Shown here piece by piece: positions 42,605-48,991 of a DNA stretch of 64,000 nt. Every line of letters begins with the position of its first letter. Within the stretch, counting starts at the first letter, position 1. The notes under the pieces are model-generated. The model was given only the letters and a program-made list of their open reading frames with translations. It was not told the DNA's origin and searched no databases. A program made the position numbers and the translations under genes. Origin of the DNA: an uncultured Holdemania sp. (GTDB taxonomy: Bacteria > Bacillota_I > Bacilli_A > Erysipelotrichales > Erysipelotrichaceae); the NCBI GenBank assembly GCA_947037125.1, contig CAMQTJ010000001.1:1-64000 (forward strand), in the 5' to 3' direction.

Positions 42605-43675
42605 TTATTTAATAATCCATTCACCATCTTTTTTAAGTATTACACTATTATTATAATATGGTGAACCATATTCATATTCAAAATCCATTAATGTATTTCC
42701 TAAAGTATCAATTACTCCATATTTTCCTTCTTGATTTTTCACAACAATTCTTCCATCAATTACAGGATATGGATAATATGGCATAATTTCATACTTATCA
42801 TAAGTTACCTCGTCCATAAATGTCTCACTTACAAATGTAGCCTGATAAATGCAATCAATAACTAGTTCCCCTTTATTATTGACATAACCCCATAAATCAC
42901 CCTTTTTCACAGGAATTAGCTCACTATCAATTTTAAATACATCATCATATATTGCATCCGTCAATACTTCTAGTTCAGAATTGATAATTCCATATTTTTT
43001 AGATATATCAAAGTCAACATCATATTCCAAGCTACTATCATAATTGGTTATTTCATTGTAGCCAAGTAATGTATTTTCACTTAATTCATTACTATTAATT
43101 TTTGATAATCCCATAGGACCATCATCTCCTTGATGCATACCATAAATTATATTATTTTCAACATCAAAGCCAATACCATTACCGTTACCGCCGCCATGTT
43201 GTCCGCCACAATTAAATAGTTCAGTATTTTGAAGCTCTATTAATTCTTGTCCGTCAGCATGGATATCTATACAATCATAATGACCTTTTGGATATCCTTT
43301 CGATAAAGGTACACAACTTAGTTTTTTATCTTGATTAATTAAACCGTATAAATTATTATCTGCAATGATATAAAAATTTTCATCTATTTCATAACTCATA
43401 CCGAAAACATCTGACGGCTTTAATAGTGGATATAATTGTTCTAATTCAAACAAAGTACTATCAAATGCTTTTATTGGTTCAGCTGTAGGCTGTACTGGTC
43501 CATCGAAATTAGATTCATTATCGACTGTAGGTGTTGATGTAGTCTTTGGTGTAGATGTAACATTTGGTGATACCGTTGGACTATTTGTATTAACTGGCTT
43601 GTCTATTTCATTTAAGCTGCATCCACTTACCAATAATAATCCTATGATTACTGAAATTATTTTACCATTTTTCAT
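42605..43675 (-). CDS. WG-repeat lipoprotein, copy 6 of the tandem array (last in order)
   Basis: The start is the ATG of MKNGKII, behind GAGGAG; an earlier in-frame ATG covers the ribosome site. The 356-residue lipoprotein has lipobox LVSGC (Cys19), a Thr/Pro/Ser linker (residues ~27-60), a diverged middle region with GGQHGGGNGNG, and C-terminal WG repeats: LWGYVNNKGELVIDCIYQ, then YPYPVIDGRIVVKNQEGKYG and a final VILKKDGEWIIK. WG beta-repeats form repeat surfaces that bind ligands or cell surfaces; the ligand is unknown. The last ~65 residues are nearly the same as in its neighbour. Confidence 0.85.
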   Translation of the reverse strand: MKNGKIISVIIGLLLVSGCSLNEIDKPVNTNSPTVSPNVTSTPKTTSTPTVDNESNFDGPVQPTAEPIKAFDSTLFELEQLYPLLKPSDVFGMSYEIDENFYIIADNNLYGLINQDKKLSCVPLSKGYPKGHYDCIDIHADGQELIELQNTELFNCGGQHGGGNGNGIGFDVENNIIYGMHQGDDGPMGLSKINSNELSENTLLGYNEITNYDSSLEYDVDFDISKKYGIINSELEVLTDAIYDDVFKIDSELIPVKKGDLWGYVNNKGELVIDCIYQATFVSETFMDEVTYDKYEIMPYYPYPVIDGRIVVKNQEGKYGVIDTLGNTLMDFEYEYGSPYYNNSVILKKDGEWIIK

Positions 43676-43702
43676 TATCTTATCTCCTCGTATCATATAT
43701 TA

Positions 43703-44668
43703 CTATTTAACTATCCATTCACCATCTTTTTTAAGGATTACACTATTATCATAATATGGTGAACCATAGTCATATTCAAAATCAATTAATGTATTTCCTA
43801 AAGTATCTATTACTCCATATTTTCCTTCTTGATTTTTCACAACAATTCTTCCATCAACTACAGGATATGGATAATAAGGTGTAACATAATCTTTTTCAAA
43901 AAAAGTTTCTTGGTAAATACATGGAATGACTTCTACTCCATTTATATCAACATAACCCCAAAGCCCATCATTTTTTACAGGTATTAGTTCACTTTTAATA
44001 TTAAAAACATCTTCATAAATACATTGTGTCAAAATATTTCCTTTACCATCCATCACACCTTTTTTATCAGATTCTTTAAATTTATAGTGATCACTGCTTC
44101 CATCATTCCAAATAGTTTGTTGCACATCACTAATATCAATATAATCCAGCAGTTGTGTTTCACCACATATCTCAGCATCAAATTCAGTAAGAATTGTAGG
44201 TCCTTCTCCAAATGCATCACGTGTTAAAACTTCTTTATTTTCTAAATCATAATAAATGATTGTAGCTTGAAAAGACTCCCATGGTGCTTGCTTTAAATCG
44301 GTATCCTGCAAATCAAAAGTCATATCATCACCAAATAAATCAGTACCATCCCATGCATATGTAATAAATGGTATTTCAATATCTAAAATTAATTGATTAT
44401 CATTATTCATCACACCATATTCTTCATTCAATGAAATTACATAGTATTCATCATTTAGCTCATATCTTTGATAGCCATTAGAAATATTAACACTATTTAC
44501 GTTAAGTAGAGGCTGAATTAAATATTCATCTTTAACTACTTCATCTTCAACACCTGAAGTTTCAGTTGGCATAATACTTGGTGCAGGTGTTTGTTTTACT
44601 ACATTATTATCAAAGCTACAACCACTTATAAGTAACATTAAAATTAATGCATAAATTATTTTTTTCAT
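43703..44668 (-). CDS. WG-repeat lipoprotein, copy 5 of the tandem array
   Basis: The 321-residue lipoprotein has lipobox LISGC (Cys17) and the shortest linker of the set. The start MKKIIYALILMLLISGC differs from copy 4 at only two residues. Repeats run LWGYVDINGVEVIPCIYQ, YPYPVVDGRIVVKNQEGK, FEYDYGSPYYDNSVILKK. The middle (residues ~90-200) has its own sequence, with DDMTFDLQDTDLKQAPWE. It ends GEWIVK. It shares the QEGKYGVIDTLGN variant of the C-terminal block only with copy 6, so these two are the closest pair there. Confidence 0.85.
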   Translation of the reverse strand: MKKIIYALILMLLISGCSFDNNVVKQTPAPSIMPTETSGVEDEVVKDEYLIQPLLNVNSVNISNGYQRYELNDEYYVISLNEEYGVMNNDNQLILDIEIPFITYAWDGTDLFGDDMTFDLQDTDLKQAPWESFQATIIYYDLENKEVLTRDAFGEGPTILTEFDAEICGETQLLDYIDISDVQQTIWNDGSSDHYKFKESDKKGVMDGKGNILTQCIYEDVFNIKSELIPVKNDGLWGYVDINGVEVIPCIYQETFFEKDYVTPYYPYPVVDGRIVVKNQEGKYGVIDTLGNTLIDFEYDYGSPYYDNSVILKKDGEWIVK

Positions 44669-44693
44669 TTCTTTATCTCCTATTATTTAATTG

Positions 44694-45746
44694 CTATTTC
44701 ACTATCCATTCACCATCTTTTTTAAGTATTATACTATTATTATAATATGGTGAACCATAATCATACTCAAATTCAATAAGGGTAGTACCCCAAATATCAA
44801 TTACCCCATACTTATCTTCCCAATTTTTCACAACAATTCTACCATCAATCACAGGATATGGATAATATGATTCTCTTTTAGATGCACCACTATATCTACT
44901 ATTTGATGTTTCACTAAATGTTCCTTTATAAACACATGGTATTACCTCGACTCCTTGACTATTAACATAGCCCCAGAGACCGTTTGCTCGCACTGGAATT
45001 AGTTCTCCTGCAATGTCAAAAACATCTTCATAGAGTGCTTCAGTAAGCATTTTTCCCTCACCATTCACTACGCCTTTTTGCCCAGATGCATCATATGTTT
45101 GGTAGCTGTATCCATCTTGAGTAATAGTTTTAAAATTAGAAATTTGCTCATAAGAAATCAAATCGTTTGGATCAAAATTTGAAGCCTCAAAATCTTTGAT
45201 TCCTCTCATATCTTCTCCATCTGTATTATAGGGCTTTAACTTGAATGAGTAAGCATCAATGTCAAAAACTACTGTCCACCCTCTATTACCATATCCATCT
45301 TGACCATTTAAATCAGAATTTTTAATTTTCTCATAATTATTATCAACACTATCAAAAATTAACATACAATCGTCTAGCACATACGGAATGAAAGGCGAAT
45401 TTGGTTTGATAACTAATTCTTTATTATTATTAATAACTCCATAGACAAGATTATCATCACTGATGACATAGTAGTCATCATACAGATTATATTCACCAAC
45501 ACTTTGATTTAGTAATGGCTCAATATATACTAACTCAAATGTTTCAGGATCAAAGCTTGTATTTGCATTTTGCTCAGGTTTAATTGTTGGTATTAGTGTT
45601 GGCTGCTTTGTCGGTTTACTAGTAGTTTTATTTGTGGGCTCAGGTTGAATACTTGTTTCAGGCATTGGTGATTGCACAATTTCATTACTGTTGGTACAAC
45701 CACTCATAAGTAACAATAAAATTAATGCATAAATTATTTTTTTCAT
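44694..45746 (-). CDS. WG-repeat lipoprotein, copy 4 of the tandem array
   Basis: The 350-residue lipoprotein has lipobox LMSGC (Cys17), linker PEPTNKTTSKPTKQPTLIPT, a central part with NSDLNGQDGYGNRGW, and WG repeats LWGYVNSQGVEVIPCVYK and DKYGVIDIWGTTLIEFEYD. The NTDLRGQDGYG-like motif recurs in the first copy of the array (48991), so the variable domain of these two is shared. The 3' untranslated stretch and ribosome site are almost identical to those before copy 5, which implies a recent duplication. Confidence 0.85.
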   Translation of the reverse strand: MKKIIYALILLLLMSGCTNSNEIVQSPMPETSIQPEPTNKTTSKPTKQPTLIPTIKPEQNANTSFDPETFELVYIEPLLNQSVGEYNLYDDYYVISDDNLVYGVINNNKELVIKPNSPFIPYVLDDCMLIFDSVDNNYEKIKNSDLNGQDGYGNRGWTVVFDIDAYSFKLKPYNTDGEDMRGIKDFEASNFDPNDLISYEQISNFKTITQDGYSYQTYDASGQKGVVNGEGKMLTEALYEDVFDIAGELIPVRANGLWGYVNSQGVEVIPCVYKGTFSETSNSRYSGASKRESYYPYPVIDGRIVVKNWEDKYGVIDIWGTTLIEFEYDYGSPYYNNSIILKKDGEWIVK

Positions 45747-45771
45747 TTCTTTATCTCCTATTATTTAATTG

Positions 45772-46809
45772 CTATTTAACTATCCATTCACCATCTTTTT
45801 TAAGTATTACACTATTATTATAATATGGTGACGCAAAATCATATTCAAATTCAATTAATGTAGTTCCCCATACATCAATTACACCATATTTATCATCCCA
45901 ATTTTTCACAACAATTCTATCATTAATAACAGGATAGGGATAACGTGGTACATACTCATAGTCTGCATTGTAATCATGTGTTTCATAACTTCCAAAAACA
46001 GCTTGATAAGCACATGGTATTACTTCTTCACCACTACTATTTACATATCCCCATAACCCACCTTTTTTGACAGGTTTTAAACTACTTTCAATATCAAATA
46101 CATCATCATAAATAGCTTCAGTAATTATTTCACCATTACTGTTTATTACTCCTAGTTTACCTGTTTCTTTGTACTTAGAAAAATCATTTTCAACATATTC
46201 TACATCATAAAGTTCACTATATGATATTAGTGAGTTTTCGCTTAATTCATCATTTTTAAAATCGACTAAAAATGAATCACTAGCATGTGCAGCTGTAATT
46301 ATATAAAGTTTATCGTTTGTTTTATCATAACCTATATTTTCATTTCCACCACCATGCCCATAACATTCATGTAATTTTGTATTTTGTAGAATTTCTTGAT
46401 ATTCATTATGACCACAAAAATATTTTAGACACCAATCTAACCCATGAGAATGTGGATAAAAAATTGATGTTGCATTTAATGATAACTGTTTTTTTTCATT
46501 AATTAATCCAAATAAATTATTATCTTCAATAATATAATATCCATCATATAAAGAATAGTTGTAGTTTAATCCTAATTCATCATAAAGCAATGGATAAATG
46601 TGATCTAATTCAAAAGCATCTTTATTAAATGAACTTAGTGTTTCCGCTGTTGCTTTCGGAGTTGGTGATGGCGTTGAACTTGGAATTGAACTTGGACTTG
46701 AAGTTGGAATTTGTGTTGGCTCAAAAGTTGGCGCTATCACTGTTTTTTCTGTATCACATCCGCTAATAAATATTAAACTTAGCATTATTGCTATTATTTT
46801 AAATTTCAT
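45772..46809 (-). CDS. WG-repeat lipoprotein, copy 3 of the tandem array
   Basis: The 345-residue lipoprotein has lipobox FISGC (Cys18, Asp at +2) and a Pro/Ser linker PSSIPSSTPSPTPKA. The variable middle carries HECYGHGGGNENIGYD, a Gly/His patch like that of copies 2 and 6. Repeats are LWGYVNSSGEEVIPCAYQ, YPYPVINDRIVVKNWDDKYG and FASPYYNNSVILKKDGEWIVK. The start follows ACGAGG. Compared with copies 5 and 6, the C-terminal block has NWDDKYGVIDVWGTT instead of NQEGKYGVIDTLGNT. Confidence 0.85.
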   Translation of the reverse strand: MKFKIIAIMLSLIFISGCDTEKTVIAPTFEPTQIPTSSPSSIPSSTPSPTPKATAETLSSFNKDAFELDHIYPLLYDELGLNYNYSLYDGYYIIEDNNLFGLINEKKQLSLNATSIFYPHSHGLDWCLKYFCGHNEYQEILQNTKLHECYGHGGGNENIGYDKTNDKLYIITAAHASDSFLVDFKNDELSENSLISYSELYDVEYVENDFSKYKETGKLGVINSNGEIITEAIYDDVFDIESSLKPVKKGGLWGYVNSSGEEVIPCAYQAVFGSYETHDYNADYEYVPRYPYPVINDRIVVKNWDDKYGVIDVWGTTLIEFEYDFASPYYNNSVILKKDGEWIVK

Positions 46810-46839
46810 ATATTTTACCTCGTATTTCTTATAAATTGA

Positions 46840-47916
46840 TTATTTTATAAACCATTCACCATCTTTTTTAAGTATTACACTATTATCATAATATGGCGAA
46901 CCTTGCTCATATTCAAATTCTATTAAAGTATTACCCCATATATCAATTACACCATATTTATTATCCCAATTTTTCACAACAATTCTACCATTTACAACAG
47001 GATACGGATAAGGATAATACGACATTTTTTCATTTCTTTCAAAAAATGTATCATAATAAATTATTGGTATTACTTCTTCACCATTTTTATCAACATATCC
47101 CCATAACCCTTCTTTACTTACAGGTATTAATTCACTTTCAATATCAAAAACATTATGATAAATCGCCTCGGTTATTTTATTTCCTTCAGTATCTGCAATT
47201 CCATATTTGCCAGATACATCAAAAATGGTTACCAATTCTTCGTATTCATTCTCTTTTTCTTTTACAGAATATAATTCTTGATATCTCAACAATGAATTCT
47301 TTGGATAATCGGTTGTATCAAAATCTAGTAGAGCAGCAGATGGACCTCCTGTACTATTATATTTATATAGAAAAGCATTTTTATTCATATCATAAACTAA
47401 ATCTTGATTACAAGATCCATGTCCGTCACATATGTTAAGTTTACTATTTTTAATTTGATCTTGAATTTCATAATATGTTCCAAAGCTTTGATCGATAATA
47501 TTCCAGTTTAAATGATTCGCTCCTTCTTGGGCATGGACTATTGGATAATTAGTTCCTATTGGATTTAAAACAATTTGTTGCTGATCATTAATAATTCCAT
47601 ATTTACCATCAACTACAAATATATAATGGTCATCATATAAACTAAAATAATCATCATCTCTCTCTACTCCTTTAAATAGTAAAGGTGCAATATACTCAAC
47701 ATCCCAATCATTTATATCAAATTTTTCTATTGGTTGTTCAACAACTATAGGCGTTGGTGTGGGTGTGGGCTTTTTAGTTGGTTCAGGTTTTTTTGTTGCA
47801 ATAGGTGTTTCAGAAGGTGTTATTGTTGGCGTTGGTGTTATATTAGGCTCAGCCTTACTACAACCACTAATCATTACTAAAACCAAAAGCATACTAACTA
47901 TCTTTTTTATTTTCAT
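46840..47916 (-). CDS. WG-repeat lipoprotein, copy 2 of the tandem array
   Basis: The 358-residue lipoprotein has lipobox MISGC (Cys19) and a very regular linker of PT-type dipeptides (TPTPTITPSETP and KKPEPTKKPTPTPTPI), which at DNA level forms an imperfect GTTGG-like repeat. The middle has NICDGHGSCNQDLVYD; repeats LWGYVDKNGEEVIPIIYY and KYGVIDIWGNTLIEFEYEQ follow, and it ends GEWFIK. A long open frame runs opposite to its 3' half; codon pattern and homology favour the minus-strand gene. Confidence 0.85.
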   Translation of the reverse strand: MKIKKIVSMLLVLVMISGCSKAEPNITPTPTITPSETPIATKKPEPTKKPTPTPTPIVVEQPIEKFDINDWDVEYIAPLLFKGVERDDDYFSLYDDHYIFVVDGKYGIINDQQQIVLNPIGTNYPIVHAQEGANHLNWNIIDQSFGTYYEIQDQIKNSKLNICDGHGSCNQDLVYDMNKNAFLYKYNSTGGPSAALLDFDTTDYPKNSLLRYQELYSVKEKENEYEELVTIFDVSGKYGIADTEGNKITEAIYHNVFDIESELIPVSKEGLWGYVDKNGEEVIPIIYYDTFFERNEKMSYYPYPYPVVNGRIVVKNWDNKYGVIDIWGNTLIEFEYEQGSPYYDNSVILKKDGEWFIK

Positions 47917-47953
47917 CTTATATCCTCATTTCATATTATTGAATTGTTGTATA

Positions 47954-48991
47954 TTATTCAATAATTGACCACACACCATCTTTTAACACCATATAATTAC
48001 CATCAATATAATGTGATGCATAATCATAGTCAAACTCAATTAATGTGTTACCTTCTTTATCAATTACACCATATTTATCATCTGTATTTTTCACAACTAT
48101 TTTATTATCAATCACAGGATAAGGATAATAAGGAGCAACCAATTCATTTGTTTGTGTTTGATCATTATAGACATATTTACTTTTAAATGTTGGTTTATAA
48201 ATACATTCAATTACTTCATTTCCATTAATATCAACATAACCCCATAAACCATCTTTACACACAGGTATTAAGTCACTTTCTATAAACAATACATCATCAT
48301 AGATTATGTCAGTAACCATTTCACCATCGTTTTTACCAACACCTTTTTTTTCTGATAAATCATATTCAGCATTCCCATATTCATTAATAACAACATTATA
48401 AACTTGTTGATAAGACCATAAAATATCATTATTATAATCATATTTTTCAAAATCTACCATAGTACTTGGACCATCATGTCCCAAATGCATTGTATTAAAT
48501 TTATTAGTTTGTTCATCAAAAATATTTATCCTACTTATTTCACCATATCCATCTTGCCCCCTTAAATCAGTATTTTGCATTCCAGGGTGGTCGTAAATAA
48601 CACTTTCATAAGCAAGCATTTCTTTATTTATGATATATGGTAAATCAAAAGATAAAATATTAATCACCATTTGATTTTGATCATTTATTACACCATAATA
48701 TCCATCTTTTTGTACTACATAATATTCACTATTAATATCATAATCAAATATAGTCTTATAATTCATATCTGTTATTGGTTCAATTCCATGTATCCCCCAA
48801 ACATTCGGATCAAATTCACCTTGTGGTAGATCTTCATATACTAATGGAGTTTCAGTTGTCACAGGTGTTGGCTCTTGTGTTGGTGGAACTGTTATATTAG
48901 GTGTTGGTGTTATTTCTTCTTTTTTATTAGTTGCACAACCACCAAGCATTAATAAAACTAATATTCCTTTAATTATTTTTTTTGTTTTCAT
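47954..48991 (-). CDS. WG-repeat lipoprotein, copy 1 of the tandem array (first in order, most diverged)
   Basis: The 345-residue lipoprotein has lipobox MLGGC (Cys19), linker TPTPNITVPPTQEPTP, and a middle with NTDLRGQDGYGEISR that resembles copy 4. WG repeats are LWGYVDINGNEVIECIYK and KYGVIDKEGNTLIEFDYDY. The C-terminus ends DGVWSIIE rather than GEWIVK, the same ending as the short relic at 49064, so both descend from one sub-lineage. The ribosome site is weak (TGAGAAAA). It lies 113 nt after the VanW gene. Confidence 0.85.
   Translation of the reverse strand: MKTKKIIKGILVLLMLGGCATNKKEEITPTPNITVPPTQEPTPVTTETPLVYEDLPQGEFDPNVWGIHGIEPITDMNYKTIFDYDINSEYYVVQKDGYYGVINDQNQMVINILSFDLPYIINKEMLAYESVIYDHPGMQNTDLRGQDGYGEISRINIFDEQTNKFNTMHLGHDGPSTMVDFEKYDYNNDILWSYQQVYNVVINEYGNAEYDLSEKKGVGKNDGEMVTDIIYDDVLFIESDLIPVCKDGLWGYVDINGNEVIECIYKPTFKSKYVYNDQTQTNELVAPYYPYPVIDNKIVVKNTDDKYGVIDKEGNTLIEFDYDYASHYIDGNYMVLKDGVWSIIE

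Follow-up and report, generated by a model that had tools for sequence, protein, structure and literature searches.

What does a bacterium gain from six neighboring genes for related WG-repeat proteins, a family that is common across bacteria and for which no established function was found? The window considered here, i.e., the whole 64,000-nucleotide stretch of DNA that was analyzed, originates from a low-GC Firmicute-type bacterium and harbors six intact, adjacent open reading frames (ORFs) on the minus strand at positions 42605−48991, encoding proteins of 321−358 residues and transcribed from 48991 toward 42605. They appear to constitute one six-gene operon of related, membrane-anchored proteins that face the outside of the cell. 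A first-pass annotation of this DNA had described six adjacent, same-strand genes sharing a lipobox, which the ORFs and their alignment confirm. In the order of transcription, the copies are:

47954..48991, minus strand: copy A, WG lipoprotein of 345 residues; first gene of the operon; C-terminus most divergent; HDGP kept, QDGYG present
46840..47916, minus strand: copy B, WG lipoprotein of 358 residues; CDGHG kept
45772..46809, minus strand: copy C, WG lipoprotein of 345 residues; CYGHG kept
44694..45746, minus strand: copy D, WG lipoprotein of 350 residues; C..GHG replaced by QDGYG
43703..44668, minus strand: copy E, WG lipoprotein of 321 residues; shortest linker, both central motifs lost
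42605..43675, minus strand: copy F, WG lipoprotein of 356 residues (363 if begun at an upstream in-frame ATG, as in the ORF list); last gene of the operon; CGGQHG and DDGP kept

The spacers A−B, B−C, C−D, D−E and E−F are 37, 30, 25, 25 and 27 bp, respectively. Because the genes lie on the same strand at distances of 25−37 bp, and no terminator-like site was found in the five spacers, they likely share one transcript, i.e., the array is likely a single co-transcribed unit. In an end-to-end alignment of all six copies, B−F are 36−39% identical to A, and the invariant columns include the lipobox G-C and YPYPV..(I)VVKN..KYGVID. The lipobox G-C follows a hydrophobic stretch in every copy (6/6), as expected of bacterial lipoproteins; the Pfam profile LPAM_1 gave weak matches, below its cut-off, in D and E alone. 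The profile PF14903 (WG_beta_rep) matches three stretches per copy (E values of 4e-14 to 2e-19; 52.8−69.6 bits compared to a gathering cut-off of 25.6), and all 17 WG-repeat matches in the whole genome fall inside the array. Searches of the array proteins with Pfam and NCBIfam yielded, in addition to WG_beta_rep and the weak LPAM_1, one negligible match and neither DUF576 nor TipC. The Pro/Thr linker, earlier described as common to all copies, is found in most and is short in E. Similarly, the near-constancy attributed to the C-terminal WG block holds for YPYPV..(I)VVKN..KYGVID, but VILKKDGEW is found in at most five of the six copies, with small changes (IILKKDGEW in D and YMVLKDGVW in A). 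A 209-residue lipoprotein on contig 16 of the same genome (4154−4783) combines an array-like signal peptide and Pro/Thr tether with an unrelated body, and the tether may be a general trait of the lipoproteins of this genome.

Identity calculated in windows is low in the center and high at the C-terminus, in agreement with the conserved ends and diverged center first proposed. Amino-acid constraint alone could give this profile, and codons were therefore compared at those positions where two copies share a residue, the fraction of identical codons being related to that expected from codon usage. In the center (alignment columns 28−305) the codon identity is 0.577, compared to 0.56−0.58 expected, i.e., the central silent sites are saturated and carry no sign of recent exchange. 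The WG block (columns 251−300), which precedes the C-terminal block and served as a control, displays an amino-acid identity of 0.50−0.66 at a codon identity of 0.54−0.56, which also represents saturation, and its conservation is, on this measure, attributable to purifying selection. In the last 57 codons (columns 329−385), codon identity reaches 0.811 versus 0.58−0.60 expected, and same-residue codons are identical at 47 of 50 positions in E and F, 37 of 41 in C and F, and 37 of 42 in B and C. Because the WG block is conserved and yet codon-saturated, amino-acid constraint alone does not yield the C-terminal pattern; judging from the codons, the C-terminal likeness is the result of recent copying between genes in addition to purifying selection. 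The segments involved, together with two gene junctions discussed below, are:

43703..43870, minus strand: C-terminal block of E, homogenized with F (47/50 same-residue codons identical)
42605..42772, minus strand: C-terminal block of F, homogenized with E, its last part also with C
45701..45871, minus strand: C/D junction tract, running from the end of C across the 25-bp spacer into the start of D; almost the same as the D/E junction
44623..44793, minus strand: tract at the D/E junction, matching the C/D junction almost completely; 14/30 identical shortly after the mature coding region begins

The C/D and D/E junctions (~170 bp) agree at 66 of 72 positions, then at 28 of 28 (stop codon and 25-bp spacer) and at 43 of 45 into the signal peptide, in an assembly of 135 contigs in which joining errors at short identical junctions are possible. 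Past the signal peptide the identity falls to 14/30 and then to 22/60, i.e., the tract stops just after the lipobox. The other spacers of the array do not contain the 25-bp sequence that is identical in these two. Since the bodies of D and E have diverged like those of any other pair, the shared junction is not explained by a simple recent gene duplication, and the simplest account would be that either the junction was converted or a body was swapped between conserved flanks. Recombination between copies, as suggested in the first-pass annotation, is thereby supported, but its footprints are found in the C-terminal block, the spacer and the signal peptide rather than in the center.

Formal tests were also applied. 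The PHI test gave p=0.0025 for the whole gene and a weak signal (p=0.027) for the center, and in the AU test the C-terminal block rejects the best tree of the center (p=0.0025). The center and the C-terminus both accept fourteen tree shapes, and all four blocks accept five, which means that the topological conflict between blocks is not absolute. The gene-conversion test proposed at the outset, implemented as a GENECONV-like test on silent sites of amino-acid-invariant codons, comprised 38 sites and had no power, which is why the codon identity relative to the codon-usage expectation was adopted instead. The result of a GENECONV-like test on all sites (p=0.002) was set aside as it is confounded by amino-acid constraint.

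The central motifs that had been taken as a mosaic are present as described, with QDGYG in copies 1 and 4 (A and D) and Gly/His patches in copies 2, 3 and 6 (B, C and F). As a sign of recombination, this pattern is not supported: the QDGYG of A and D, although no shared run in the center is longer, lacks significance in a permutation test (p=0.073), the silent sites of the center are saturated, and the Gly/His patch appears to be ancestral. The patch has the form C-x-GHG, which is found in seven of nine relatives outside the array, and the motif that follows it, (H/D/E)(D/E)GP, in all nine; in the array, one or both motifs have been lost piecemeal. Given that C-x-GHG is common in the relatives, the simplest view is that B, C and F kept their patches from the ancestor.

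Loss of conserved central motifs, seen in D and E, is also what would be expected from a serious rival explanation, in which an old envelope lipoprotein was amplified in tandem under relaxed constraint, the centers drift without diversifying selection, and frequent conversion between neighbors keeps the ends alike, without any function as a repertoire. The central pN is near pS, both being saturated, and conversion by itself accounts for the ends. However, all six frames are intact, and the signal peptide and WG block have remained under purifying selection despite a divergence that has saturated the silent sites, such that we consider relaxed amplification to be a real, if somewhat doubtful, possibility.

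Of 316 genomes from 80 genera of the order, a set that includes one genome of the species, one contains the array; the suggested search of related genomes thus confined it to the genome studied here. Relatives at E ≤ 1e-15 were identified in seven other genomes, the eight genomes spanning four genera. Each of the seven has between one and three such genes, dispersed and coding mostly for longer proteins, and the array is absent from all of them; in the genus mate G001 no relative of the array genes was found. Six of the nine relatives harbor an extra region of about 200 residues or more before the WG module; in the remaining three, about 140 residues precede the module, with signal and tether counted in. 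In three species of another genus a lone relative adjoins ispH, and this fixed place suggests that the single-copy gene is vertically inherited and has a standing role in the envelope. In a tree of the WG core, the six copies do not clearly group as one clade (36% of the bootstrap trees), and the internal branches of the array match many of the intergeneric ones in length. The same WG gene gave identical match scores on contigs 9 and 72 of G002, indicating that the gene was recently duplicated or that the assembly contains it twice.

Several other candidates were considered and rejected. Distant matches in Clostridia are multi-repeat membrane WG proteins rather than arrays. For an origin in mobile elements or phages, no relative was found in IMG/VR, plasmids carry only distant WG proteins, and a PHROG search gave nothing beyond a weak spanin match to the signal/linker part. 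For anti-phage defense, PADLOC returned no match to the array. A separate set of tandem paralogues was observed in G020 (contig 60, 5130−17594), where an N-terminal extracytoplasmic-function (ECF) sigma factor (sigma-70 regions 2 and 4) is fused to a region of WG repeats plus an SH3-like domain, according to Pfam, which was applied to one of the three paralogues with WG repeats; they resemble sigma factors that span the membrane and use WG domains as sensors. A further paralogue has VWA, TSP3 and lipase domains in place of the WG architecture.

The neighbors of the array encode an M19 dipeptidase, an ABC transporter, VanW, DUF6591, SPFH and TM2 proteins and a serine resolvase, the last 4.4 kb upstream, and a Pfam search of the flanking genes revealed no toxin domain next to the array. 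The flanks (39913−42604 and 49105−54023) are located between atpC and the M23/mbl genes. At the corresponding position G001 has other genes after the atp operon, the contigs of G002 and G003 end shortly after atpC, and the ABC permease of the flank has no match in the genus mates. These flanks may therefore represent a variable island. Phase or antigenic variation of the surface, with one scaffold switched from copy to copy, would be in line with the conserved ends and variable center, which are reminiscent of silent-cassette systems, but here all six copies are complete, closely spaced and on the same strand, there are no pseudogene cassettes, and neither strong inverted repeats nor an invertible promoter were found around the array; we regard switching as highly improbable.

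The layout of the genes and their recombination pattern fit the tipC and lpl/tilA arrays (PMC9484751, PMC10730906), which raises the question of whether the array is a poly-immunity locus, where, as with TilA and TipC, each lipoprotein would neutralize one version of an extracellular antibacterial toxin, whether type VII or contact-delivered. A locus resembling a type VII secretion system (T7SS) is found on contig 61 (1742−8110), encoding two WXG100 proteins, a 596-residue lipoprotein (weak Big_2), an EssC-like FtsK ATPase of 1263 residues and a small YukD-like ORF; EssC-like matches are found in all four genomes of the genus. The serine resolvase is also of relevance because polyimmunity loci, often a single polycistron, are sometimes located next to recombinases, according to the accessible part of a survey of polymorphic toxins (PMC3482391), the same part in which the WG repeat is not mentioned. 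However, the EssC-like protein falls below the T7_EssC cut-off, no toxin gene lies beside the array, no LXG protein was found in the genus, this genome included, and the search for a cognate toxin yielded none. Furthermore, the lone copy fixed beside ispH in three related species is more in line with a core function. Taken together, a poly-immunity role is unlikely in our estimate, and our confidence that the array serves T7SS immunity is low. Less likely still is the specific proposal of a new WG-fold extracellular poly-immunity array, in which each lipoprotein would neutralize a different competitor-toxin variant and cassettes would be exchanged via the 3'-spacer-5' blocks.

AlphaFold models based on 6 and 10 sequences have a pLDDT of 63 and 68, respectively; by block, the values are mostly 76−94 in the WG part and below 50 in the variable center. 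The best Foldseek matches are mainly beta-propellers (YxaL, BamB and the designed Cake and Ika), with a TM-score on the query of at most 0.29 and an rmsd above 8 Å, and we read the predicted WG domain as blade-like beta meanders, short of an established closed propeller. A search by sequence for a solved structure of the array proteins returned none.

The explanation that we favor, with moderate conviction, is that of a lineage-specific operon of six co-expressed extracellular WG-domain binders that evolves like the tipC or lpl/tilA lipoprotein arrays. Each protein would consist of a signal peptide and a lipidated cysteine, followed by a tether rich in Pro and Thr and, outside the membrane, an all-beta WG-repeat domain of about 285 residues. 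The near-identical segments, i.e., the 3' block, spacer and signal peptide, presumably act as homology blocks for conversion, duplication, loss and body exchange, while the WG domain would be held by purifying selection as the center diversifies. More tentatively, the six domains may be displayed together as extracellular binders with different targets, like the poly-specific TipC and Lpl/TilA arrays; such targets could be competitor toxins or ligands of another kind.

A set of six variants of one domain, probably co-expressed, offers a handle on the function of the WG repeat, and conversion of the ends combined with divergence of the center points to the center as the likely functional surface. 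If the array confers immunity, the known range of immunity against extracellular toxins would gain a new fold and a new lineage; if host or microbial ligands are bound, it would provide ready-made variants in specificity. The pattern of conserved ends and a drifted center is known from toxin-immunity lipoprotein arrays, and in the literature searched no earlier array of this kind was apparent for the WG family.

We hold with moderate confidence that the array would work like the TipC/TilA-type lipoprotein arrays. The tipC genes of the Streptococcus T7SS (TelC system) are tandem paralogues with a lipoprotein signal, conserved 5' and 3' blocks and a variable center, and they recombine through these blocks (PMC9484751). 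The present array has the same tandem lipoprotein paralogues, conserved end blocks, variable center and recombination via the blocks, but it belongs to the WG beta repeat family, no telC-like toxin gene is adjacent, and the 5' block is clearly common to D and E only. Lpl/TilA (DUF576) of Staphylococcus aureus, of which TilA has been proven to be an immunity lipoprotein (PMC10730906), are also tandem lipoproteins, and recombination tracts in lpl/tilA extend from the 3' portion of a gene across the spacer to the 5' portion of the gene after it, as in the array. In contrast, Lpl recombines through a conserved central stretch, while the center is the diverged part of the array, which also has no adjacent TslA-like lipase. 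With other WG lipoproteins of the same bacterial family, the array shares the WG module (about 280 residues), the lipoprotein signal and the C-x-GHG and (H/D/E)(D/E)GP motifs, the difference being that those genes are dispersed, one to three per genome, whereas here they are arranged in tandem.
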